This document shows positions 29,701 through 61,300 of a stretch of DNA of 64,000 bases, piece by piece. Both the position numbers and the translations under genes were made by a program. Numbering within the stretch: position 1 is the first letter of the stretch; every line of letters begins with the position of its first letter. The notes under the pieces were generated by a model. That model saw nothing but the letters and a program-made list of their open reading frames with translations. It ran no database searches and was not told where the DNA came from. Origin of the DNA: Ditylenchus dipsaci (lineage: Eukaryota; Nematoda; Chromadorea; Rhabditida; Anguinidae); NCBI GenBank assembly GCA_004194705.1, contig SADC01000364.1:1-64000 (forward strand). Reading direction: 5' to 3'.

Positions 29701-32700
29701 CAAAATAGTCTCTAAATGCATTTTTGTTCAAGAGTCTTCTCGGAATTATGTCTAAGGTAAGTGAGTGCGCGCATCTCTAACTCTCAAGCCCCTGCGCCCC
29801 CTTCGGGGGCGCAGGGGGCTTGGGGCTTGGAGTTGAGATGCGCACACCCACATACCTTTAGACACAATCACTCGAAAGTGACTCTGGATGCATGAAAAAA
29901 CATGCATACAAAGTTTCTTTATGCGGTAGGCCCCAGTATTCAAACTATGTTCAAAATTCATCTTCTTGGTATATTCAAGGATAACACAAAATTACTGTAT
30001 TATACATGAAACAGTTTAGCATGTTGTTCTCTTAAGTATCTCTTAAATTACACATTTTGTGACATGAATTGGATTTATTCTCAGAGTCTTGAATTTTCGG
30101 GTTCTGGAAATGGATACCTGTTAGTGTGGTACCTGCCCGAGGTGAATAAGAAAGGGTAACAAGGTTTAGGTATACACAGGTGGTTTAGGTACCATCCATG
30201 TGGTGCGGATACTACCCAGATAGTTTGGTAGAAATCAAGTGACATACATGCTATTCAACAGTTTGGGTAGAATAAAGGTGGATAATACCCTGAACCGTTT
30301 TGCCTCGGTCGTTAATGAGAAAAATTCAAATTTTGTTGAAAAAGTTAAAATAATGACTTCCCTCAAGACAATGACATGAAATGAAAATAAAATGATAAAT
30401 ACTGTGGTGTATGGGTAAAGTTATGGGTATTATATTAATGACAAAATGTTGAGGCTTTAATCACAATGGTAGCAATATTTTATTTATTTTCGTGATATAT
30501 GTATACGTCACGTCAACTCATTTGACCGTAAAAGTTGAAGTGCACCCCCTCGAAGTGCACCCCCTTGAAGTGCACCCCCCCTTGGGAGGGGGGGGGGGTG
30601 CACTTCAGGGGGGGGGGATTGCACTTAGGGGGGGGGGGTGCACTTCAACTTTTACGGTCCAAATGAGTTGACGTGACGTATACATATATCACGAAAATAA
30701 ATAAAATATTTGCTACCATTGTGATTAAAGCCTCAACATTTTTGTCATTAATATAATACCCATAACTTTACCCATTACACCACAGTAAGACAAGGTACTA
30801 GTGTATTAAAAAAAGATATATATTTACTACCGTGTGTTCTCTATTAAACTCACAAAAACAATTATTTTTGGCTTTTGGCCATTCTGAATTGGGTCCTAAG
30901 CCATCTGGTTTTCGCCTACCCTGAAATTTTTACAAAATTGACCAAATTTAATTTTAAAAATTTTAATTGCTGATTTATGCCGAGAAACTACAGCGAAGAC
31001 AAAATAGTTACACGCTGTAACTATTTTTTTCAAATTATTACTTTCGTGGCGAGAAATAGTTACAAGAATAGTTACAAAGGTCAAAATAGTTACAGGCTGT
31101 AACTATTTTTCAAATGCAAAAATTTGTTTCTACTATTTCCCGCAAATAGTTACAAAAGCTCATCCCCGGTTTGGACATGTTGTGTCAATATGTCAACGAT
31201 TATTACAAAAATTTTCAAAGTTGTAAAATAAAAGTTTAACAAATTCAACAATTTAAACCAGAATTCAAATAATATATGAGATCACCCAGAAAATAAGTCC
31301 GATAGACGATATCCGGTGCGATGTCCGATCAGATTTCGGTCCGATGAGTTCTCACATAGCATCGGACGAAAATTCGATCAAACTTAACCGAAGTCCGGTC
31401 CAATAGCCGGTCCGATCCTATGTGAGAATCGGGTGATTGTATAATTCGATAAATCGCGATGATTCCGATTCTGCCGGTCGTTTCTGCAAATAACAAATAT
31501 CGGGAAAAACGGGCCTTATTGGTAAAACTGTGCCTATTTGTAGAAAAGACTCGCAAAATTAGAATCCTTGCGATTATTCTGTTTAGACTAATCAAATACG
31601 ACTAGCAACGACTTCGAAAATCATGGTAAAGAAATGACGGATCCTAAGCGGGAACGAACTCGAGGGAATTCAACCTTATTTTTGTAATTTTACCTGTAAA
31701 GATACATTCTCTAAGTATTGATCGTTGACAATTTCCTGGCCATCTTCTCCCGTCAACTTTTTGCCCTGTAAAATCCAGTGAACATAAAACGGTGCTTCAA
31801 CATAAGGTGTCTATTCCCACCTGTTTTATACTCATTCAACTCCGCTTCCAAAGCAGCAATTCTGCCCCGCAGTTCACTGGAAAATTTTATTTGTAAATTA
31901 GGCAGAGACCATAGCATTGTAAAAAGGTTGCCTAATCAGTTTGGAAGATTTGTCCTGGTTGGCTACCACCTTATTTTTAATGTTTTTTGCTCGGTTGGCA
32001 TAGTTGAGAGTGTTCAGAGTCTCCACAAAGTCTACGTCACTAGGACTGGCACAAGCGATCATCAAGGTTCGACTGAAGTAAAAGTACACAAATTTTAACC
32101 ATTGCTTTAAGGAATAAAAAACCTATTGCCGCCGAGGGAGTCTTGCAGCAATCTAGAATTATTAGATACAAATAATTAGCAAAGAAAAGACCAGAAATAC
32201 CTGGTGAGTTTGGAGTCCCTGTAAGGCACATGCATAACACGTCCAGAAGCTCCTCCAAAGCACTGATAACATTTCCAAGGGCTAACTGCAAGACATTTTT
32301 TTGGTTTTTTTAACTTTGAGCCATTTTGACGCTGGATGTGAGTAACAACAGTCGTCAAAACTAGGGTTGTCGGCGCCGGCCGATTTTCGGCTTTTCCGGC
32401 CGAAAACCGATATTTTTTTGGTTTTCGGCTTTCGGCTCGGCTCGGCGGCCGAAAATTTCGGTTTTCGGTTTTCGGATTTCGGCTCGGCTCGGCGGCCGAA
32501 AATTTCGGTTTTCGGCTTTCGGCTCGACTCGGCCGGTCGAAAATTTTAAAAAGAAAAAATAATTTTCTCTGTTTTCTCCCGTTTTTGCTTAGTTTTCCTT
32601 CGCTCATTCTTTAGCCTTGTATGTGTCAATTCTGTTCTAATTTTAATCCTTATTTTTAGCATGGCACAAGCATCGTGTGAAAGTCTTTCAAGAAAGTAGG

Positions 32701-35700
32701 GGAGAAGGCTGTCTGCGTCTGTGGAGAAGAACTGATGCTTAGCAAAGCGGGTCGACATCAACTTTGGCCGGACATCTGAATTCTGCAAGACACGAGGAAG
32801 CAATGGAGAAGCAAGGAGTGGGACCAGCGCCAAAGAAAGCCAGATCAATTCAATCGCCACTCTCTTCAGTCCGAACTTCTCCCAGCAACAAAGCAGCTGT
32901 TAACTAGCGACATGACCGACTTCATCGTGGATAGCAATCTGCCGTTCTCAATCGCTGAATCTCCTTTCCTCCGTCGTCTGATCAAGCACAACTATGGACA
33001 AGCAAAGGTAATTATTTTTGGGCTCTAATATGCTGTTGACTTGATTTAATTGAACTATTTTCAGCTCCCGTCGCGCCATGATGTCAGCTCAGAGGTACCG
33101 ATCAAAGCAGCCAAATGTGTGGAGGATCTGTGTTCCTTCGTCCGTGGCCAACAACTTTCTCTAACAATGGATGAATTCTCTCACAAGGAGCATTCACTAC
33201 TCTGGTCACTATTTCGGCTACATTTTTTCAATCATCGTTTAATCGTTTATTTCCGTTGCAGCATCACCGGGTCGTATCTGTCTGAAGCATTTGAGTTTCG
33301 TTCAAAAGTCTTGTCTGTCGAATCTTTTCTTGAGAACCATACTGGGGATAATATAGCGGAGAAGATCAACTCAATACTGGCCTCCCTCGAAGTGGACAAA
33401 AACAATGTGGTTGCTGCAACTCGGGACGGAGCACCGAATCTCGCCGGAGCAAAAGATGGTGGTTGTATCATGGTTGTATCGTGATGCGGCACAAGGTCAA
33501 TCTGCTCAAGTATGCCGAGAACTTTCCAGGATGCACTGTTGCGAAGCATATCAAGAGCATGTCGGAGAATGACTTTGATGAGATTGCTGATATTGTTAAA
33601 GTTCTTCAGCCGTTTAAGGACTGCACAAAAATGGTAGAAGTCGTTTCTTGTTTACTCTTGCATTTGCTATCATCTTAATACTTAGGCCTCGTATCAGAAT
33701 GCTCCGCTCTCTTGCTATCCGTTCTTTGTGAGAAAGCAGTCCGAACACCTGGAGACCTTTATGGTGAATTTGCGCTCAACATGAATATAAGCTTGGAAGC
33801 CAGAACGAGGGATCTGCTCAATCAGTCGGAGGTGGGCTATGCAGCTTTCTGGATCCACGTCTCTCCTATAAGTAAGTGATTAAAATGCTTTGATTATTTT
33901 ATTTGATTTATTCTATATTTGTAATTAATTTTTCTTCAGATTGTCCGTAATGGCTAAGCATAAGTGGGAGTACATTAGCAGGAAATCTTCGAGCCCTTGT
34001 CGAAAAGTGTGCCTCAGCCAGCTGCTACGAATCAACCAATACAATCGGCAAGTGGACTGTGGGGAAGGTGACAATGAGTTCGTACAACAAGTTTTGGAAG
34101 GCGAAGATGCAGTCATGGTTGGTTTAATATTTGTACTATATGATTTTTGTTTGTCTATTCATATTCTAATAAATTATAGGATGAACTAAATAGATATCTA
34201 GCGAGAAGAAACTAGCGTTGCCTCAGCCGGATCTCCAGGACACGAAGAGATGTTCAACTGGTGGGCGAAGAATAGGGTGCGCTTCCCGACTCTGGCAGTG
34301 CTGGCTCGCAAGTATCTGGCGATTTCTCTCTCAAGCGTGGCGTCTGAAAGGTGCTTCTCCAAGGCCAGTCTTCTATTTGCCAACGCTCTCAGGTCTCGTT
34401 TGGCAAAGCAAATGTCAGCTAACCTGCTCATTATCAAAGCTGATTTGGCGGATGCAATCTTAAGGAAGCAAGCGAAAGCAGCGAAGAGGAGCCGTTGGAA
34501 ATTACTAATCTTTTGTTGTATGGCAATGACTAAATGTTATATGTGTTTAAGTGTTGTTGTGCGTGTTGTATGTGGGTGTTTCAATAATTTTTGTTTGTTC
34601 GAAAGCAAAGTGTTGTGTGCGAGTGTTGTATGTGGGTGTTTTAATAAATTTTTGTTTGTCCAAAGAGTTTTATTTAAGCATTTTAGACTTTTACTATGCA
34701 TAGAAGAAAAATAAATTATTTTCACAATGCAAAGACGTTGAATACTAGTCATGGCCGAAAATTTCGGTTTTCGGCTTTCGGCTCGGCTCGGCCGGCCGAA
34801 AATTTCGGCCGGCCGACAACCCTAGTCAAAACATATAAATCTACTTCCGTATCTCAATAACTGGCTGCTATCAAACATTTTCTATATTTTCTAAACTACA
34901 TATAGCCTGTGATTCTAGTTTCTAATGAAGTATTAACTGGCTTGATGAGATCTATAAAAGTGTGATAACAACCGCAAAAAATAAAACATTGCCGCAAATT
35001 TTCTTTCCAGCATGATGCGTTGAATCGTAGGAACGGCGTGCCTATTTTAGTAATTTTTGCTGAAATGTTTACATTTTTTGGCATTTTCGCCGTTCGGCTC
35101 AATACGGAGCGACGACCTCAGAATCTTAAAGCCCTCTGTTTTAACCCTAATGACCTTGTCCGTAGTCATGTTTACCCCTAGGGGTCAACATTTTTCAAAG
35201 TGTCGCTTTTGCTGATGTTATGTGTTTGTCGTTATCAATAAAGAAAGTTCTGTAGGATTGACTAATTCAGATAAGTTTATTGGTTAGATTTTGCTAAAAA
35301 TCTTTAAGAGCAGTGATTTTTTAGTGCTGCAACAAATCGATTGGCAAAGCCGTGCTATTCGGTTGCCAGTGTTTTCTTTTGTACGTTTAATAAGGTTTGA
35401 CGATTTTTTTTCTGGTGACACTGTTATGGTGCTTCACAGAAAAAGTGGGCGCTAGTAGCGAATACCCCCCCCCCTCCCCAACAAATTTTTTTTCAAAATC
35501 AGGTTTTAATCACTTCTAAGTAATTCTTATGTGCTGAAAACGATAAAAAGGGTGTTTTCAGGCATTTTCTGACCTAAAGTTGATTTTTTGGAAAAAAATT
35601 TTTGACCAAAGTTCGACTTTTTGCCTTGGGGGACCAAGGTAACCACCTGAAAATGGGGCTAGGACACTTCGCTATGAGGACACTTCGCTATGGACAGTTC

Positions 35701-38700
35701 GCTATGTTTTTTAGAACTTTTTCGGTAAAATTTTACCGAAAAAGTTCTAAAAACATAGCGAACTGTCCATAGCGAAGTGTCCTCATAGCGAAGTTCGTTT
35801 TACCCTGAAAATGGTACCTAGAGTCCTAAAAGATGGGATTTGAACATAGTTTTGTTAGCTGGGCCTACCGCAAAAATAAACTATGGTATGCATGCTTTTC
35901 ATGCATCAACAGTCACTTTCGAGTGATTTGTGTCTAAGGTATGTGGGTGTGCGCATCTCAACCCAAGCAACCAAGCCCCTGCGCACCCTTCGGGGCATAC
36001 CAGAGTTTATTTATGTGGTAGGCCCCAGCTAACAAAACTATGTTCAAATCCCATCTTTTAGGACTCTAGGTACCATTTTCAGGTGGTTTACCTTGGTCCC
36101 CCAAGGCAAAAAGTCGAACTTGGTCAAAAAATTTCTTTCAAAAATCAAGTTTTTAGGTAGGGTTGCGCGCTTCGTTTATTTGCCTAAGCCGTTTACCGTT
36201 TAGGACCCGTTTATCATATCCGTTTATCGTTTACGTTTAATGAATCGCTACTAGGGTCAAAAAGTGTATCGAGTCGGTTGGCAGTCTAAAGGACCATGGT
36301 TTTTGCAGGCGGTAGAAATTAGAGATGCGGATTTGGGTTTATGCTATATGCGATGCGATATTTTTAGCCTCGCCTGAATGCGATAGCGATATTTGATATT
36401 TCTAAAAATCGAGGTGCGATATATCGCTGCGGTATGCGATATTTTTCTAAACGACTATGTCCATGAAAAACCGTCTTAATCGTGTTTTTTTCACAATTAA
36501 TGACCAGGACAATCAGTTTTGCGCTTTATAGAACATACATCATATTTCTACAACAATGAGCTAATATTTGAAATTCAAGGAAAAATATTTTAATTCCGGA
36601 AAATCAGAAAACTCTGGACTCATATTCGATCGTCTGTAGTCTTTATCGTCATGAGCAACCGAAAATAACTATTCACTTAATTGGGACCCGAAATCTTTTT
36701 TATTTAGGTTTTACGACAAAATATTTTTTTGGCTCAAATTGAAACACCCTCAAAATATGTAAATCCCACCTCAAATATAAAATCACCCCCTCAATTTAAA
36801 ATTTACCCTTTCAAATTTGAAATTTACCCTCAAATTTGAATTTTTAGTGAAATACTGCAGCAAATTTGTGGTAATCCGATTTTATAGTCAAAAGGACTTG
36901 GATCGCTCAGAATTCACCTGGAAGCGGCCAGAAGCCACTGAAAGTTGGTTTTTTGGGGTTTATTAAAGGGGCATGCCCACGCCAATAAGTTTCATTTCAA
37001 ATGTTTGAATTCCGGCACAGTTTTTCAGATGAAGAAAATAAATTTGAATTTGTTTCTCATTTTAAACGTTTTATCGTGTTTCTTAGTCGTCTCACAGTTT
37101 GCGATCTTTTTTCTGTAACACTTATCATCTTGTTCAGCAATACCCAATTTTAGGGACAAAACGAGTCTCGGTTTGTAATTTTTGGTTTCTCATCTTGAAA
37201 ATATTGAATTTTACATTTCTTGCACAGCTTTATCGAGTTCAATTGGTCAATAACTCGCTTCTTAGGTCAAGCAATTTTTCGTCTCAGTTATTCGTCCAAA
37301 TGCCATTCCGCGACACAATTGTAATTTTATAAGTCCGTTAAATTTTTCAACCAAACATAAACGGATCCCATTTGCCATAGGTGGAAGGTGTAAACGACAA
37401 AGCTCTACCGGACAAAGTTCTACCGCGACATATCCTACCGCCATTTCATTTGATCATTGTATATAGGTTGTGCCTGTGTACATTCATACCTACATAGTGA
37501 CCAGATAAAACAATTTCGGAAATTATTTTCTCGCTTGATAAATCATGTGTATGGTCTCCGAGAGGTACTTGGCAAATTACCTGCTTATATTAAGGTAAGC
37601 CACCTAGCGGGTACTCTACCCAAGCTTAATCGCACCCAAACTACTACAAATCTTTATCTCAGTCGCTAATCGTTCATGTTTCGCTATTCAAAGTGTCGTT
37701 TTTTGGATTTTTAGGCTTCTGCTTCTGACACTCATTTTACCATGTTAAAAGTTTAAAGTACCTCAGCCCTTTTTGATGATTGTCGGCTTTGAAAAACGGA
37801 ATACCGAACCGAAAACGCAACAAACTACTTTATAATGGAAAAGTGTAAGAAAAACAACATAGCCAAGTGTTTGAATTTTCCGAACCGCCCTAATAGAACC
37901 TCAACCCCCGAAGGATAACTTACTTGCACTTTTTGACTTTGTGAGTTTCTTGGCGAGAAAATTAGTTTTCATCGCTGACTCACGCAGCGCTATGAAACCC
38001 GCTCACATAACACTCACAAAACTCAAATCCGTGAAGAAATCACCTTGTAATTTTTAACTGAGCCAATGTGACTCCATCACCGATAAAACGCCTAGATAGT
38101 GACATATCTCAGAAAATGAGTTCCACAGAGACTACAAGCATATTTTATTTCCAACACACAATTGACAAACACCAGGAATAACAAACAAATAAGACTGCAA
38201 CTTGGATTCTCTTGGATTCTTAACGACGAGCAGCGCCCTTCAGCTCAACTGGAATGCTCAGGCCCTAAAAATACGGACGTGCTCATGTTCACTCACCCAG
38301 CTAAATGATTACGTAATGCTCGATCATTTCCTTAGTCCCTCGTCACGGCGAGTGACGGATGGGAGAGGGATCCAGATAAGACATCTCGTACTTATGCTGT
38401 TTGGGACCGACCGTCATTTTTTGTTTTTTCTTTCATTTTGAGACTAGAAATAATATAAATAATTTTTATTTACACTATTTAATATTCACACTGATACAAC
38501 GACATAATTTGCGACCAAGTGGAAAAAAATATCAGGACCATCAATTTTTCTTCGCCACACAAATCAGACAAATAACTTTGGAAAAGTGATCTAGCAGTTC
38601 CGAATTCTTTCTTGTGACGCCACTTGTTTTCTGCCAGAGAGATTCAATAGCCTGAGTGTGCGTGCCGCTCTCTGGATCCACAAAGTTGATTGAATGTTGA

Positions 38701-41700
38701 CCGTCAGATGTTGATAGCCTTCTGGAAGACGCTCGATCTCTGTTTTTTGTGAAATTTGTGCATAAAATCAAAAAAATGACGGTCGGTCCCAAACAGCATA
38801 AGTACGACATCTCGGGCATGTAGTTGTCGCGACGCTCACGTTCCTCTTCCTGCAGCTTAATGGAGATGCCACGAACTGGCCCTTCTTCGATACGCTTCAT
38901 CAAATGGGTGGTGAACCTGAATAAAGTGGATTGTGACTAGGAGCAGGATTTAGGAAGCACTATGAAGCAGAACAAAATTTCGGCACACGCTTTTACGAAT
39001 ATGGTAAGTGGTAGAAAAGCGAAATTGTCACAAACTTGAGACACAAATCAAGAAAACATACCAGCATTCGGTTTCTCATCTTTTGCTCGGGATCACTGCT
39101 ATTTCTGAAAGATTAAGGTCAAATATGTGTTAAAATAGCGGTGAATATACCCTACCTCACAAATTCGCTTGTTGGTGTGGAAATACGCTTCAACTTGGGA
39201 TAGTACTTCTCGATGATATTTCGCGAAGCCTTCTTGACTGTCTTGGTACGAACTCGGCCAACCATTTTTGTCTAGCGATTGAGATTTTGAATTTGCAGAT
39301 CAGCGAAATTAACCTGAAAACAATACAATCTACTCTTACCGCAGCATAAAGCCAAAACAGCATTGAACAAAGAACGTGCACAACGACCACATTTTATATG
39401 AAACAGGGTAAACAAGAAGGGCGATAAAAAGAAACATGTCGCACAGTTAGCGCTCAGCTACAAAATGGCACGAAGGAATAATTTTTGGAAATTTTTAAAA
39501 AGAGTTATGGCCATTTCGAGTGAGGATTGCTGAATTTACAGTCCACCATTGTGTGCAAGGCCTGAGACGACTAGAAGCATACCATAAAAAATTTTGAATG
39601 AGAACAAATTCAAATTTATTTTGTCTTCACTGAAAACTGGTGCCGGGAATTCAAACATTGAATTCAGACTTATTGGCGTGGGCATGCCCCTTTAAAGGGG
39701 GGTAACTTTTTGCAAAAATTCGATTGGGGGATAAGAATTACAGTCGATCGGCTTAATCGCTCAGAATTCCACCGTAAACCACCCAAAACCACCATGAACC
39801 GGAATTCTAAGCGATTAAGCCGATCGGACTGGAATTCTGATCCGCCATCTCGAATTTCGCAAAAGTTAACCCCCTTTAGTAAAGCCCGAAAAACCAACTT
39901 TCAGGGGATTCTGGCCGCTTCAGGGTGAAATTCTGAGCGATCCAAGTCTTTTGGTGTACCTACGACCGGATACACATTTTACCGGATACAACGACCGGAT
40001 ACGTGTCAAATTTTGCCTTGGTCCCCTGTCAATTTTTTTTTTATTTTTTTTCGATTTTTCAACCACTTAGGCTTCAGGCTTAGCCCTTAGGCTCGAGGTA
40101 GGCTAGCGCAGGTTAGGACGACTCAAACGTGTGGTTTAAACATACTTTTTTGAACTTTCATAGAAAAATGTATCGGTCGTTGTATCCGGTCATAATGTGT
40201 ATCCGGTCGTATGGGAGTCGTCTTTTTTGACTATAAAATTCGGATTCCCGCAAAATTTGCTGCAGTATTTCACTAAAAATTTCAAATTTGAGGGGTAATT
40301 TCAAATTTGAAAGGGTAATTTCAAATTTGAGGGGGGATTTACACATTTTGTGAAAAATTCAAATTTGAGGGTGTAAAAAATAAATTTGAGGGGGGGGGGC
40401 ATTTACATATTTTGAGGATGTTCTCACCTACAGCCTTTTTCAGTGCTCAGAAATCAATAAGCACTAAGATAAACTTGCTCTTTTTGACAAAATGACTATT
40501 TTGTACTTTTTTTGGCCAAATAACTTTGGGGAGCTTTTAGAAGTGGCGACTTTTTCAACTTTTAAGTGGTCTGAAACTTCTGTTTTCATTAACTTTTTGA
40601 GCTCTGTAAGAGTGCCTGTTAGATTTTAAAATCTCTAGCAGCACTTTCACAGAGCTTAAAAGGTTTTTAGTAAAACAGAAGTTTCAGAACACTTGAAGTT
40701 AGGGGAAGGGCGCTAATTAGAGAGGGGGATTAGAGAAAATACGGTATGAGGTTAACTCATCCATCGAGCACTCTGCGTGGGGTTATGAAACTCAAGCCCA
40801 AACGATGTGATGAACGACCTTGTTGTCGAGAGCAGACACTTCTCCTAAAACAAAAAAATGAAAGTACCAGTTCGTCTGATCAAAAATTGCTACATAAACA
40901 GCTTCATTGATTTCTTCTTTGCTTTCTCTTCTTCTCAGAATCTCAAAAGCGATATTTTTCAAATTTGCGATGCGATATACGATATTTCTAAAAATCAAAA
41001 TGCGATATTGTGCGATCGATATTTTTCGACCAAATTCGATGCGATATGCAATATATCGCAGGTGCGATATTCGATCGTCCGCATGTCTAGTAGAAATGTG
41101 CAAATTTGAATTGGCGGGGACACTCCTCTTTCGTCTATCAGTGTACTCTTTCGAGTCGTTTCGAATTACTCGAAGAAGAGTACAGCATTAGACGAAAGAG
41201 AAGTGTCCCCGCCAATTCAAATTTTGCACATGCCACTGCGCGGAAAAAACCATGGTTTAAGAAAATTACTTGACATTTTTTGAACTCAAGAAATTTTGAC
41301 CCTGAATGTTGAACCCGACTATGGACTGGGCAAATGATGCGATCATCAATTATGATGATGCGAGAAAAAAATACATTTTTCCAAGACGATTGCAAAAAAT
41401 TGTTTTTCAAAGAGCGCCATAAAAAAGTCATGGCTGCTTGAAAATTTAAGTTGAAATCGGTTAAATAACTTGGCCGACCCTTTATGTGACAGGTCTTTGA
41501 AAGTCTGCATTGCAACCGTTTCATTCCCTGTGGCGTTCGTACCTCACAATTTTTATTTCAGGCTTTTGAAAACAAGAACTCATCATCATGCATCATCTCT
41601 CGTACAGAATCATCAAGCAAGACAGCAGTAGTAGCAGCAGCAGCGACGAGGACGATACTTCGAGTGGCACTGGTTCCTTTCACACTGCTTCTGACGTTTC

Positions 41701-44700
41701 GATCCTATCGCAATCGAGAAATTCCTCAGCCAAGACAAAAGGAAGTTGAGAAAGCTGGCATCAGTCGTTCTTCTAGCAAAGCAATTTGGTATCTACCGTT
41801 TTGACTGGACTGCATGACGTGGTCGAGGCTGTGGGTTGGTCGTTTCTTGGTCGTTTATCGCTTTCAAATTTTCATCTATTATATCCTAGAAGACGAGATC
41901 AGTACGGCTGTGGAATCGAGCAGCGAGAATGAAGCCATGGCCAAGCTCAGCATCGAAGAGCGCGCAAGTTGACGCTAGAAGCAGAGAATCTCAAAGAGCC
42001 GCATCCTGAAGAGAACTCGTTTTGCACCCAGTGGTTTGGATACCTGGTTGAACAATTCCGAAAAGTTGCTGAGCAATGTGAAGCAAAAGACTATTGCCAC
42101 TTTCCAGCATTTGGGATGGACGGGTGTGAAGAATGTTGTCAGCTCAATGGGTATGCAAACACAATTTCTGTCTATTTCACAGTAACCATTGCAGTTTTAG
42201 GTGAGGGCATAGTGCATTGGGTGGACTCGACTTTGGACATCTTGCCGCCGGAAGAGATGGCTAAGCGAAACACGGTCAGCAGTGTCGTCTAGCCAAGGTG
42301 AATGGCCAATATCGTCAGAATCCTTTTGCCAACAAGAACAGTGACAAGGACAAATAAACTTTGGTCAGATCCCTTTGTATTATTCGATTTTTGCGTTGTG
42401 TTCTCGACTATAACTTCAAGTCAATAAATTTGTGCTGTCGTAAATTGAAGCGTTATGATTTGTTTTTCCAATAGAGTGTGTGTGACGATTGGTCCCTGGA
42501 GGGCTGTGTTCGGAGTGTGGAAATGTGCTAACGCACATTGAATGTCTAAATGCGCATTTGAATGTGTATGTCTAGTGTAGTTGGACACGACACTTCTTCG
42601 TCGCACCGTCGTAAGCGAATTCATCCACAAAAATTTGTCCCGACACTAATGTTCTATATTTTTGTCTTGAAAAGTTTTCTTGTCAATTCAAATATTTTTC
42701 GATGAAGCGAAGTCCAAGAGTGGAGATAGGAACAAACAATATATTGGTATTGGGGTATTGGGTCAAATAAAGGCGTTAATATTGGTATGGGATATGGTTG
42801 GGCAACCTTTTCTTGCCGTAAAAATACTTTTTTTTTGCCGCAGGAAATACTTTTTTTGCCGTTAATTTACTTTTTCTTTCCGCTAATTTACTATTTTTTT
42901 TACTTTTGCCGCAACTTTTTCCTTCATTTTTGCCGCAATTTACTTTTTTTTGCCGGCTTGTCCGCTTATTTTCGATGTTCTTGCACAGCCCCGGTGCAGC
43001 CTAGAACTTTATCCGAAAAAACTGTTTGCTACGCAAACAGGAGACTTTTTGAACCGTTCCTTACCAGAGCAATCCCTCCAAGCTACTCACATTTCTAAAG
43101 TAATTTTGATATAAAAACATTTCCATCAAGTTTTTTGTGCAGCTCTAAGTTTAGAATTTGCTACCGTCCTTTCAAACATCAATAAAATAAGTAAAGCGGC
43201 GCTAGTAGCGAATCCCTCCTCTAAATCTGACCTTTCAAAAATTGCTGTAACTACCCTTTGGAACAACAAAATTAGGCTTACGGAAGTTGTGACTAATAAA
43301 TGCGTGACGCTATTTTACGGGGGTCTGGGGAAATATATCTAGGTAGTCTTTACTTAAGTTTTAGAAGGAAAAATTTGGTTCAATTTAAGTTCAACTCAAT
43401 CGATGAAAAAACATAAAGTGTGCACCCAGAGGGATCCGAACTAAAGATTTTTAGATTAGTTTTGAGCTGAATTTTAAAGATTCCATGCGATACTATATAC
43501 GGACAGCAGATGTGCCCTCCTATTGAGTAAATATCCTCAAAGGTGCATTACTCTAAACAATTTTAAACACCTCTAACTAACTCAAGCTACTTTTAACAAA
43601 CGCCGAACCACTAAAACATTTAAAACAACATTAAAATAGCTCCAGACAGGGAACGACAAATCGTCCTAAATAGGACTATTTCGGGACTATTTTTAGTCCT
43701 AAAAAAGCCCCCGTTGGTGAGACAATAGTCCTACTTGGACAAAGTCCTATGCGGGACATAGTCCCATTTCGGGACTATTTTCCCGCCCAATTCAAACGAA
43801 CATTAATTATTTGCTGAAAAATAGACTTTTTTGGGCTTAAATATAATTTTTTTTGTTTTCTATGCGTTTCTGTCTTAACTAATGGTCCTGAATCAACATT
43901 TTTTCTTTTTTTCAAATGATAGATATCAATATACAGAATTTTTTTAAGACGCTTTTGCACTTTTTTATCACTGATTCATACCTATCTTTCCTTGTTTTTC
44001 GAGAAAGATATACATTTCTCTCTTTTAATTCAAACAATTTTATTTTCAAATGCAATTCATCAACAATTGAGTATCAGATCCTTCACCAGAATTTTTTAAC
44101 CAGATGTTTTGTAGAAAGAGTTCGAAGTTTTACCATCCGATGTCAAAACGAGTTTGCATATAACCAGGGTAGGCATATGTTTTGTTATCCGAACAACATG
44201 AGCTGATCACAGAATTCCCAGTAATTGTTTATTCGACTCTTGATTTCCATCATTTCCCTTAATGCAACTGAGAAAGCCACATTCTACGGCAGGATTCGTG
44301 GATGAATAGGAGCAATGAATGTGGTTTGCATCATTGGATGATGTCCAATGCCCGGCCCAGCTCGGGTCATTCTTATCTCCTCTAACAAGGACACTTATAA
44401 ATAAGAAAATTCAATTATAATTATTTACCGCAACAAAACGCTTTTATAGGCCCAGCCAACATCCTGTTCCAAACGAAAAGTCTGGGGAATCGTTACCGAA
44501 GTAGTAGTATCGTCCACTGGAGTGCCGAATTGTTGGCAAAAGAAGGCGGACACACACCACGACACCAAGGCGCTGCCCCATACCACTAATTAATAATTTT
44601 TTGTTAAAAGTTCATGGCGATTTTTAAATAGTTGTAATTAAAAAACTAAATAGTGGCTTTGATTAGTAAGAAATTCTTACTAAGAATAGTGTATATTTCC

Positions 44701-47700: not shown

Positions 47701-50700
47701 AACTTCACAGTCCGTTGTCTTATTTGTGTATCAAATATAAGGATTTCATCTGAAACAAAATTTATGCTTTGCGCCAACTATTTAACCTTGGGGTCATTTT
47801 CTATGAGGCAACGGACTGTGAAGTTGACTTTACGATAAATTTACCGCTGAATTTCACAAATTTACCGTTGAATTTCATTGTTTTATGGCAAATTTTGAAA
47901 ATACCGTTGAAAAAAATTAATTTACCGTTGAAATTCACAGTTTTACCGCTGCAATTCACTTACAGCCATTTATAATAAACGCTGAAAAAAAGCGTCAAAA
48001 ACATAGATAACAGGCAGAAAAGCGGCAAACCAAGTAAATTAGCGGCGAAGAAATTCAAAAAAATTGCGGCAGAAAAATGTAAATTTACGGCAAAAAAAGT
48101 AAATTTACGGCAAAAAAAAGTAAATTGGCGAAAAAAAAATTTTGCGCAGAAAAAAAGTCAATTAGCGACAATAAAAAGTATTTTTGCGGCAAGAAAAAGT
48201 AAATTTGCGGCAAAATGAAGGAAAAAGTTGCGGCAAAAAAGTATTTTTTACGGCAAAAAAAAAAGTAAATTGGCGGAACTTACATTTGCTGCAGAAAAAA
48301 GTAAAAATTAGCGGTAAGAAAAAGTAAGTTAGCGGTAAGAAAAAGTAAATTAGCGGCAAAAAAAAGTATTTTCTGCGGCAAAAAAAAAGTCTTTTTATGG
48401 CAAAAATAAGTATTTCTACGGCAAATTTTTTTTACGGCAGAAAAAAGTCTTTTTGCGGCAAAAAAAAGTAAACCTGCGGCAAAAAAAAGTATTTTTTACG
48501 CAAGAAAAAGGTTTGCCCATATTGGTTGGTGGTGCTTCGAAATATTGGTATTGGGTTTGACAAAGATATTGGATATTAAATAATGAAATTTTTCCAATGG
48601 AAATTTCAAATTTTCAGTCATATTTCCTCTTTTTTCTGGCCTAATGGATGACATTAAACAAATTTTATTTATTATTTTTTCATAGATTTACTTAAATTGT
48701 CTTATTTTAAAGAAAAAACTTATGGCCCATTCATAAACGTTGTCGTTGGGAAAAAATGTTTATAAAGGCAATTTTACGCCAACGACAACGAAATTTTTTA
48801 TTCCAAATCGGACAAATTTTGCATTTTCAGTCGAAATTTCGAGGAAAAACGTATGGAAAATGCAGTTAGTCCTCAAAATTTTGACTTGAAATGCGAAATT
48901 TGTTTGATTTGGACGACAAATTCTTGTTGTCATTGGCGTTGTCGTGAGATTTTATAAATAGGTCGTTGTCGTCGTTGTCAAGATGCTTTTATAAAAAAAT
49001 TCCAACGACAACGCAACGACAACGAAAAACGTTTATAAACGAGCCATTAACGAAAAGACTTTCCTATACAGTCGAGTCTTGATTTAACGTACCCCTCGAT
49101 ATAACGTACCCCTAGGGCCGGTCCCCAGGGGGTACGTTAATCGAGACTCGACTGTACCCAAAATTTTTTGGTGATATAAAAACTAATGTTAGAAGTTGTG
49201 ACTCAGAAGTGATTTTTTTTCTAATAAAAACCGAAATGGATAGATTTTTTGTTTCTTTAGGCCAAAAAACCAGTTGCAGTGTGTTACTAAATCGAGATCA
49301 GACTGAATTAGGATTTTTTTCAATGTTTTAGTGAACAAATAGACTTTTGAAAAATATTGGTATTGAGCAATATATTGGGGTCCACAACTTTGAAATATCG
49401 GTATTGATATGGGTCTAGAGAAGGCCAAAAATATTGGTATTGGGCAAATGGAAATGCCCATCTCTAAACAAGAGATGCACCTGGGTTTAAATGGTTCAGG
49501 CTGAAAAATTTAAAACTCCCACGTAATTTTTAAATTTAGAATTTTGTCCTATGTCCTAAATGCGGGGCCCGAACGCGTAGTAACCGTGGGTGCAACTAAT
49601 TATAAACAGAGTAGTTTACAACACCAAATTAAATAAAAAGCGTGAAACTGGATCAAATAATACCAAAATGACACATAAAAAATTTTGCGACGAAGAAGTG
49701 GCCGCGACGAAGAAACGTCCGATGAGAAGCGTCACGTACCGTAGTGTAGGGACGGTCCTCGGTATTAAATGCCTGGCTGACCAATCGGGCCAGGGGGTGA
49801 AGGTCGGAGAGGCCCAAACGGCCTGCTATCCTCAAGGGTATATCATGCTGATACATTTTTCTGATATTAGGGCGTAGGTAGAGGGCGATGATAAAGGCCT
49901 TAGGGGTGTTTTTGTAAGTGTAACGGTGAAGATAAGCCTAACCCACCAGTCCACAATTGATGCTGATTCCCTCCTTCTGTCTATCTCCAGTTGCCTCCAG
50001 TCCTCTTGAGTCTTTCTGAGCCAGCAAGATCAACAAAGTGGAAATTTGGCAGTCAGCACCTCCAGTTCTGTGGCTGGCGCAGCTTTCCATCCAGGCCATA
50101 TTTTCCTCTGTCGTCAGTCTGAAATTCCATTTAATTTTATAAATATTGTCAACGATCCTAATAATCTGCTTACATCAACAGCAACCATCCTCTGCTGCTT
50201 GATAAGTACGGAAAAATATAGCGTGTGACCTGGATGAGGATTGATTCATGGTGGTGGAAGCGGTGGTTCTGTTCATAGCCCCGTTTTTAAAAGCGCTACC
50301 AGCAAAGTCTTCGGCGGAATTAATGGGCATGCTAGCTACTCCCTTTAAGTAAATCTCTCCTTTAATGGGGTCTTCGCGAATGCCGATGTTGGCGTGCCGT
50401 TCTTCTGTCAGAAAGATCGATGATTTTTTCGTTATAGAGCTGAAAAACTTAGGTTAACGTTTTGTTTATGACTGCAAATCGAAACTATTAACCTCGATGA
50501 ACTGCACAAGAATTTCAAAGACTGGCTCGACCAGTCCCCTTTCCTTGGCTTCCAAATTTTTCTTTGCTCTATCCCAGAGAATATATGCCTGGCAGCTCGA
50601 GGATGATACCGATCTTGTTGTCGGTGAGAGAAGAGAGCTGGGTAGTGAAGATTCGAATGATGTGCCCATAGTGAATGTCTTTCCACTGCCTGTCTAAAAT

Positions 50701-59756: not shown

Positions 59757-59946
59757 AAAAACCATGGTTTTCGCGCGCAGTGGCATGTGCAAAATTTGAA
59801 TTGGCGGCGGACACTTCTCTTTCGTCTATCAGTGTACTCTTTCGAGTTGTTTCGAATGACTCGAAAGAGTACAGAATTAGACAAAAGAGAAGTGTCCCCC
59901 GCCAATTCAAATTTTGCACATGCCACTGCGCGCAAAAACCATGGTC
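59757..59946. repeat. Intact hairpin MITE with CCATGGTTTT tips
   Basis: Perfect-looking palindrome: CATGTGCAAAATTTGAATTG and TCTCTTTCGTCTATCAGTGT on the left have inverse copies on the right, around a TCGAGT-rich loop. It serves as the empty-site relative of the copy split at 36319/41098. Confidence 0.8.
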
Positions 59947-61066
59947 CTTTAAGGATAAATACAAAACACTAAAATTAGTCAAATTATCGAGCCAATAAAT
60001 CAAAACTTTTTTTGCACAAAAAGACACTAAAAGTGTGTGTATCCCTTCTTGACACCTTTATTTCCGCTGAAATGGGCAGTGAGTGAAATTTAAGGTGTGG
60101 TTGGAGACTAGAGAGACACGAAGGGTGCAAGTCAGGTTGGAGACAGGAGAGAACCCTGATGCATTGGTGCGTGGTTGACTGTTGGGTGGGTATGCAAAAG
60201 AGCAAGCAAAGAAAAAAAAGGATTCAACTCAAATTTCAAACATTTTTTTCTTCGCGCTGCTCTATATATTTTGGCTTCATTTAGCATTTTTGAACAATCT
60301 CTTCAAGACAAATTGTGTTTAAAATCGAGTTTATAATTTTTTCTAAAGGGGTATACCAGTGCGTTACACTACAATTAAGGCGGGCCAACAATTTATTTCT
60401 CCTATGACCGTTTTATATATGCGTTCTAACTGATCCGACAAAAGTTTTCTGTCTTCTTTTAAAAGTAGGATAAGGACATAAATCAAATTTGAGTTGAAAC
60501 ATGAGAAAACAGGCACGATTTCTGAAAATTGCTGGCCTCCGCCTTAATTTGCAATGTAACGCGCTGGTATGCCCCTTCAAGAAAATTCGGCTCATACTGA
60601 TTTTATTTGCGAAAAGGCTGAAATGTGCTACGAAAACGAGATTAATGATATGAAAAATTGAAAATTTGAATTAAAAATTGAATTAACAAACGTGCTCGGC
60701 ACGAAAAAATTATCTAAAGGGAGCGTCCTTATAGTCAGTGTTTCTGAATTAACACTCGCATAACTGTTTGTAACTTCAGTGCATATTTGTGCAGAATTGC
60801 ACGCTGAACAAGAGTGTTAGTAGGTTTTTTATTAACTGAGAAAAATACCGGCGAAAAGCTCCTGAAAAAAGTTCTTTTTCACAGGTGGTTTTTCTAAATT
60901 TAACACTTGTTGAAATTTTTGATCTAATGTTTGTTATATAAAACGCCTTAATTTTTTTTGATTTCCGTCATTGGGGAGGCAAAAGCATGGATTTGTCCCG
61001 CTGAAAAAATTCCTCCTAAAATGACTCATTTTCATCACTCACTCATCTTGAGTCATATTTTGCCCC
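59947..61066. other. Repeats, no supported gene
   Basis: Contains the MITE 60347-60579. ATTGCACGCTGAAC near 60800 resembles the tip region of the long-TIR elements at 18026 and 51086. Confidence 0.4.
60347..60579. repeat. MITE with AAGGGGTATACCAGTGCG tips
   Basis: Inverted ends of about 50 bp: GTATACCAGTGCGTTACACT at the left; GTAACGCGCTGGTATGCCCC at the right. Confidence 0.75.
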
Positions 61067-61074
61067 ATCGTTAA

Positions 61075-61300
61075 AGGGCATGCCCACGCTAATAAGCGGT
61101 GGGGCCCGGGAATTCCAATTCTTTTCCTAATCATTAAACTTCTTTATGGATTTTTCAACTAGGTTTCTAAAAAAACTATACCTAAAATAAATTCCAGGCT
61201 TTGTTTTGTTAGAGACCAAGCAGAAAAATCCGTACAGAAGTTCAATGATTAGGAAAAAACATTTAATTCCTGGGCACTACCTCTTAACGTGGGCATGCCC
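61075..61300. mobile_element. 226-bp MITE with GGGCATGCCCACG tips, 8-bp TSD
   Basis: TSD ATCGTTAA at 61067-61074 and 61301-61308. Tips match the RPS17-carrying element 36969-39689. The interior is the TTTCTAA/TTAGAAACC hairpin also present at 5100-5245, 5325-5465 and in the arms of 51074-54639. Confidence 0.82.

Follow-up and report, generated by a model that had tools for sequence, protein, structure and literature searches.

The window analyzed here, a 64,000-nt stretch of contig C363 in the genome assembly of the nematode Ditylenchus dipsaci (226,978,389 bases in 1359 contigs), contains a minus-strand gene for the ribosomal protein (RP) RPS17, which lies between the terminal inverted repeats (TIRs) of a transposon-like element and is embedded with it in a nest of other mobile elements (Table 1). 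We compared this nest with 20 fetched RPS17 loci. The RPS17 copies have in common a coding sequence of 384 nt divided among four exons, an intron in the 5′ untranslated region (UTR), a TATA-like box and an AATAAA poly(A) signal. All of these parts are present in the window, as the original prediction from this DNA had stated in calling the gene complete, but the gene is broken by length changes and by a 418-bp element in coding exon 3, where an insertion, putatively of the Merlin type, had been predicted.

The unit carrying RPS17 had been described as ending in 70-bp TIRs flanked by an imperfect 8-bp target duplication. Both details had to be revised: the two arms can be aligned along 132 bp with 85% identity, TTAA counted, and the duplicated target is TTAA itself. 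An approximate search of the window and 35 fetched loci placed TTAA directly outside 56 of 59 TIR ends versus a background of 2.1%; the three ends lacking it belong to L025, to L041 and to L019, where the end in question is a second and degenerate one. Conserved sequence stops at TTAA in nearly all copies. At L021, a relative of the host repeat runs uninterrupted over the insertion point, with the element absent and CTAA where the window has TTAA. Across the genome, the TIR end was matched 806 times (404 + 402, with at most 2 mismatches) versus 0 times by the reversed control pattern. The window holds one more TTAA-TIR end of this family, a degenerate one at 61071-61097, for which no partner was found within the window.

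RPS17 matches were obtained at 21 places in the genome (39 exon matches). At 17 of these, the window plus 16 other loci, one or both TIRs are present. RPS17 is neither single-copy, nor are the inverted repeats absent or due to chance. The places devoid of TIRs are C467 (L013), C1267 (L014), C37 (L028) and C1283 (L017); the last is fragmented, its longest piece being ~93% like the window copy, and was excluded from the alignment and the tree. Additional remnants of the RPS17 element were found at L039, L040 and L041, and L053 and L015 appear to be two halves of a single element on C299. Reading frame and splice dinucleotides are kept in three of the 17 TIR copies (L009, L010 and L016), L009 and L010 being without AATAAA within 150 bases after exon 4; in L012 the length differs at the start of exon 4.

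A second RPS17 locus that is intact and lies outside a repeat was found on C467, with canonical splice sites and no TIRs, and this is likely the native gene; the window copy is broken and lies between TIRs. The protein from the C467 gene is nearest to that of Ditylenchus destructor (87%) and to one short entry (87%). Residue 16 is valine in L013 and asparagine in the TIR copies, L014 and L028, and asparagine was found at this position in none of the 13 fetched relatives. Because this residue is shared, the cargo would derive from a diverged RPS17 paralog lineage and not directly from the C467 gene. The second coding intron spans 444 nt in L013, ~147 nt in the TIR copies, 115 nt in L014 and 105 nt in L028. 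L014 and L028 also show exon length changes, which may reflect decay or assembly error. In D. destructor there are at least four RPS17 protein entries (P0002, P0005, P0030 and P0035) with differing C-termini, and duplication of RPS17 may extend more widely across Ditylenchus.

Phylogenetic analysis of the captured segment in 20 sequences (GTR+G, rooted with L013) placed all 17 TIR copies in one clade with an ultrafast bootstrap value of 100 and short internal branches. L013 branched off first and then L028, with L014 as the sister to the TIR clade (joined at 95). L014 corresponds to positions 267-1650 of the element consensus at 82% identity, from the promoter to beyond the poly(A) signal, and differs outside those limits, where it has no TIRs. 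RPS17 occurs, as in a Pack-TYPE or transduplicating TIR element, both in 17 TIR copies and in the TIR-less L013, L014 and L028. The comparison of 31 flanks of the 17 copies revealed no insertion site common to any two; the only shared stretches were three of 158-265 bp between different repeats. The closest pairs, L009/L010 and L011/L023, are ~0.4% apart, yet their flanks differ. We read these data as indicating one capture of RPS17 followed by a burst of transpositions, probably with some recent movement, and the slight divergence of the close pairs suggests recent activity of the family. This reading agrees with the original prediction of capture by a DNA transposon and transposition of the whole package.

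The same comparison bears on whether the copies were spread by segmental duplication, or are allelic duplicates of the assembly, with the TIRs as passengers. The D. dipsaci draft comprises 227,234,012 bp in 1,394 scaffolds, assembled with CANU from PacBio reads with no short-read polishing stated, while flow cytometry gave 160-170 Mb versus the 227 Mb assembled (PMC6929663). Because of this excess and the lack of stated polishing, the assembly can be expected to contain small indels and some haplotype duplication. Similarity nevertheless ends at the TIRs, the flanks of the 17 copies differ, even those of the ~0.4% pairs, and control genes were found on 1-5 contigs, not on ~20: RPS6 on one, PCNA on two, RPL15 on three (one a fragment) and RPS26 on five, two of which have two places each. 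Duplication of this kind is very improbable and was rejected on the flank comparison.

Processed pseudogenes often derive from ribosomal protein genes, and reverse transcription would be one conceivable origin of the RPS17 copies. A scan of all 17 TIR copies showed that introns are kept wherever an aligned copy spans them, at the same three coding positions and in the 5′UTR. Moreover, the unit includes promoter sequence and is bounded by TIRs with TTAA. Retroposition is ruled out by the introns and the TIRs, in line with the original argument from the introns, and we give processed pseudogenes practically no chance.

The TIR family carries a second RP gene. Sibling elements have other cargo but resemble the RPS17 element in their TIRs and along 433 bp of one end (85%). 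An open frame of L043 matches Ribosomal_S27e (E 2.3e-9, Pfam). Within a TTAA-TIR element, L051:206-2114 (C391:74155-76063) holds a complete RPS27 of 84 codons in two exons, together with TATAAAA and AATAAAA; this was the one undamaged gene among eight RPS27 models examined. RPS27 sequence is also present at 5025-5144 of C569, inside the single 3.5-kb copy (C569:4545-8058). RPS27 was found at 38 places, 26 of which have a known family TIR no more than 3.5 kb away. By the same measure, 16 of the 21 RPS17 places and none of the 36 RPS19 places were close to a TIR, in a test that drew on 100 of the 806 pattern places and 41 arm hits. No listed TIR accompanies the best RPS27 match (C580), which may be the native gene. 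These results suggest that the TIR family acquired and amplified RPS27 separately from RPS17. At C1060:59818-60342 (L022), an RPS27-type and an RPS17-type element stand back to back, apparently with a common TTAA.

RPS19 had been tried as a single-copy control and was rejected, being itself present at 36 places (63 exon matches, often two of them ~60 bases apart); it was reused as the negative control for TIR proximity. Examples are C744:20729-21123, C1335:428225-428619 and three places on C31. As none of its places is near a listed TIR, RPS19 was presumably spread by something other than the RPS17/RPS27 family.

The ends of the RPS17 element, AGGGG...CCCCT preceded by TTAA, bear on the identity of the carrier. 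In the available part of one survey, the Kolobok superfamily is given a TTAA target and RR...YY ends, the latter not being given for piggyBac (PMC9587614), and an available description of T2 miniature inverted-repeat transposable elements (MITEs) gives the terminal motif AGGRR (PMC6004289). The element shows the TTAA duplication, the AGGRR terminus and the RR...YY ends, and thus its ends point to Kolobok/T2 membership. A piggyBac carrier would account equally for the TTAA target, and no transposase was identified to separate the two; its AG...CT ends are of the RR...YY kind that the consulted text ties to Kolobok and not to piggyBac (PMC9587614), and AGGGG fits the T2-MITE motif (PMC6004289), so that piggyBac is possible but doubtful. 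The likeness to Kolobok/T2-MITEs extends to their large non-autonomous families and to nematodes within the listed host range; no gene-carrying Kolobok appears in the available portions of these descriptions (PMC6004289; PMC9587614), and the present element is known by its ends.

Taken together, these observations make it very likely that the RPS17 and RPS27 elements arose by gene capture by a TTAA, Kolobok/T2-like TIR transposon, followed by transposition. A non-autonomous element would have taken up one genomic RPS17 complete with promoter, poly(A) signal and every intron, the donor belonging to the diverged paralog lineage of which C1267 and C37 would be TIR-less relatives. Filler lies between TIR and cargo at consensus positions ~150-266 and 1680-1940, which suggests that the gene was acquired via gap repair or template switching rather than by clean insertion. 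The element would most likely have been mobilized in trans by a TIR-recognizing transposase encoded elsewhere, presumably by cut-and-paste, and repeated transposition would have carried it to ~20 places, where copies that bring their own promoter may be transcribed. In the window, it would have inserted into a long-inverted-repeat element already within a hAT element within a MITE in a kinesin intron, to be broken subsequently by another insertion. The same TIR family would have independently taken up and amplified RPS27.

Several points weigh against this scenario. No transposase, such as the DDE enzyme with THAP and H2CH motifs expected of an autonomous Kolobok partner, was found by Pfam among 26 open frames of the four sibling loci L042, L043, L048 and L051. 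Five of the 21 RPS17 places (C467, C1267, C37, C1283 and C1271) are not near a listed TIR, and among them C1271 alone has its own, degenerate TIR. Rather than relatives of the donor, C1267 and C37 could be old copies of the element whose ends have been lost. In an unpolished PacBio assembly with possible duplicated haplotypes, the exact copy number and the frameshifts are uncertain.

The substitution pattern suggests that, during part of their history, the source copies were still coding, which does not in itself demonstrate a host benefit. The 17 copies carry 23 nonsynonymous (N) and 19 synonymous (S) substitutions versus 35.8 and 13.7 predicted from the non-coding spectrum (nominal p 0.011), that is, an N share of 0.55 observed versus 0.72 expected over 42 events. 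A stricter filter gave 22 N and 17 S (p 0.019), and the 'intact only' group, which comprises L009, L010 and L016 and includes L012, gave 5 N and 8 S (p 0.015); the 13 more damaged copies showed no clear signal (21 N, 13 S, p 0.11). Dropping three damaged copies, a choice made after the fact, gave p 0.0017.

Both this deficit of amino-acid changes and the three copies with frame and splice dinucleotides kept would be expected if the cargo were a domesticated dosage reserve, maintained by the host since several copies make functional eS17. We regard this as unlikely: there are just 42 events and the signal is not clear in the more damaged copies, 14 of the 17 copies are broken (some of the breaks possibly being assembly errors), L009 and L010 miss the nearby AATAAA, and an identical signal arises if source copies alone stayed intact. 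A more speculative idea, to which we attach a rather small chance, is that RP genes are the preferred cargo. On this view, a strong germline promoter together with a 'self' transcript would maintain transcription of the element, leave it open to transposase and protect it from small-RNA silencing, and RPS17 and RPS27 would for this reason have been taken up as entire functional units. The cargo would then serve as camouflage or as a launching pad, selection for transmission would keep source copies coding, and RPS19 would be a parallel case on another carrier.

The nest itself was predicted to have five levels. The five named layers were all recovered, in the order hairpin MITE, hAT-type element, long-inverted-repeat element, RPS17 element and 418-bp element from the outside in, and a sixth element, a small MITE, had been overlooked, which adjoins the RPS17 element within the right arm of the long-inverted-repeat element. 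The outermost step is based on the predicted perfect 8-bp duplication and on an intact relative of the MITE in the same window: when the hAT flanks are fused over a single GTAGAAAT, they align along this relative. The left end of the hAT-type element is repetitive: scoring 40 of 193 candidates gave 41 matches, and 37 of these begin at query base 1; no transposase was found inside the element. The long-inverted-repeat element, broken up by the RPS17 element and the small MITE, yielded no clear target duplication, and its place in the order is suggested by its arms and relatives only. The RPS17-element step is based on TTAA and the uninterrupted host-repeat relative, and the innermost step on the duplication and on RPS17 copies without the 418-bp element, which also has separate copies elsewhere in the genome.

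Table 1. Features of the transposon nest and of RPS17 in the window
Feature	Position	Strand	Basis or remark
Outer hairpin MITE, left piece	36286..36319		holds first GTAGAAAT (36312-36319); aligned to relative at ~59759-59951
Outer hairpin MITE, right piece	41090..41258		49-bp hairpin; 41090-41097 is second GTAGAAAT
hAT-type element	36320..41089		perfect 8-bp GTAGAAAT duplication; ends TAGAGATGCGGA / TAGACATGCGGA
Long-inverted-repeat element	~36743..40422		inverted arms; relatives in L013, L021, L028, L017
Small MITE	39961..40211		42-bp TIRs (93%), starting ACGACCGGATACAC; in right arm of long-inverted-repeat element
RPS17-carrying, putatively Kolobok-like non-autonomous TIR element	36967..39691		TTAA, AGGGG; 17 TIR-bearing copies
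TTAA, left target duplication	36963..36966	+	host-repeat relative in L021 continuous here, with CTAA
TTAA, right target duplication	39692..39695	+	sequence comparison of copies
Left TIR	36967..37094	+	arms align with right TIR
Right TIR	39563..39691	-	arms align with left TIR
Part common to RPS27-carrying siblings	36963..37386		~85%, counted from TTAA
RPS17-element-specific segment	37386..37679		long matches only on 18 contigs with RPS17 elements or remnants; four additional matches of just 39-48 bases each
Putatively captured genomic segment (promoter, RPS17, downstream flank)	37679..39448	-	limits of similarity to TIR-less paralog L014
TATA-like box	39392..39398	-	sequence
5′UTR exon part between UTR intron and ATG	39266..39313	-	UTR donor at 39338-39339
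RPS17 coding exon 1	39156..39265	-	copy comparison
RPS17 coding exon 2	39062..39104	-	copy comparison
RPS17 coding exon 3	38313..38916	-	split by element at 38388-38805
418-bp element	38388..38805		8-bp duplications GACATCTC at 38380-38387 and 38806-38813
RPS17 coding exon 4 with stop	38220..38264	-	copy comparison
AATAAA poly(A) signal	38144..38149	-	sequence

A motif scan detected kinesin motifs on the minus strand on both sides of the nest (SSSRSH near 50246, DLAGSE near 50031 and a third near 32223-32232). The nest therefore appears to sit, as predicted, in an intron of a kinesin gene on the same strand, between the motifs at 50.0-50.2 kb and 32.2 kb. By eye, plus-strand sequence at 41580-42330 resembles exons of another gene in this intron, on the opposite strand. 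An open frame at 34250-34714 on the plus strand contains a hAT dimerization domain (PF05699, E 2.7e-12) and is a remnant of another hAT element. The Rfam scan of the window returned nothing at the gathering threshold.

Accounts of gene capture by DNA transposons usually concern the shuffling of fragments in plants or of individual genes in fungi. In the present case, complete, promoter- and intron-bearing RP genes, two of them in one transposon family, form stable cargo in an animal genome, and parts of the basic cell machinery thus travel to many genomic places. Many 'ribosomal protein genes' in the D. dipsaci genome are transposon cargo, which calls for caution in annotation. It now becomes testable whether housekeeping promoters benefit transposons, how dozens of extra RP genes are handled by a genome and how whole genes are acquired. 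Word searches of the open-licence literature found no report of RP genes carried by DNA transposons in nematodes.

The cargo of the plant Pack-TYPE and Pack-MULE elements consists mostly of gene fragments, in contrast to the complete genes with all introns and promoter carried by the present elements in an animal. The likeness lies in non-autonomous TIR elements that contain host gene sequence, as far as the available descriptions go (PMC8903248; PMC13317346). The nearest precedent found is the amplification ('transduplication') of hAT-borne histone H3 in Pseudocercospora and its relatives, where, according to the consulted part of that study, a housekeeping gene was likewise captured by a DNA transposon and amplified while the original survived (PMC6710886). 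That system, as described there, involves a hAT element in fungi, with copies inactivated by repeat-induced point mutation (PMC6710886), whereas the system described here involves a TTAA element in an animal, intron-bearing whole genes with their promoter and two RP genes in one TIR family.

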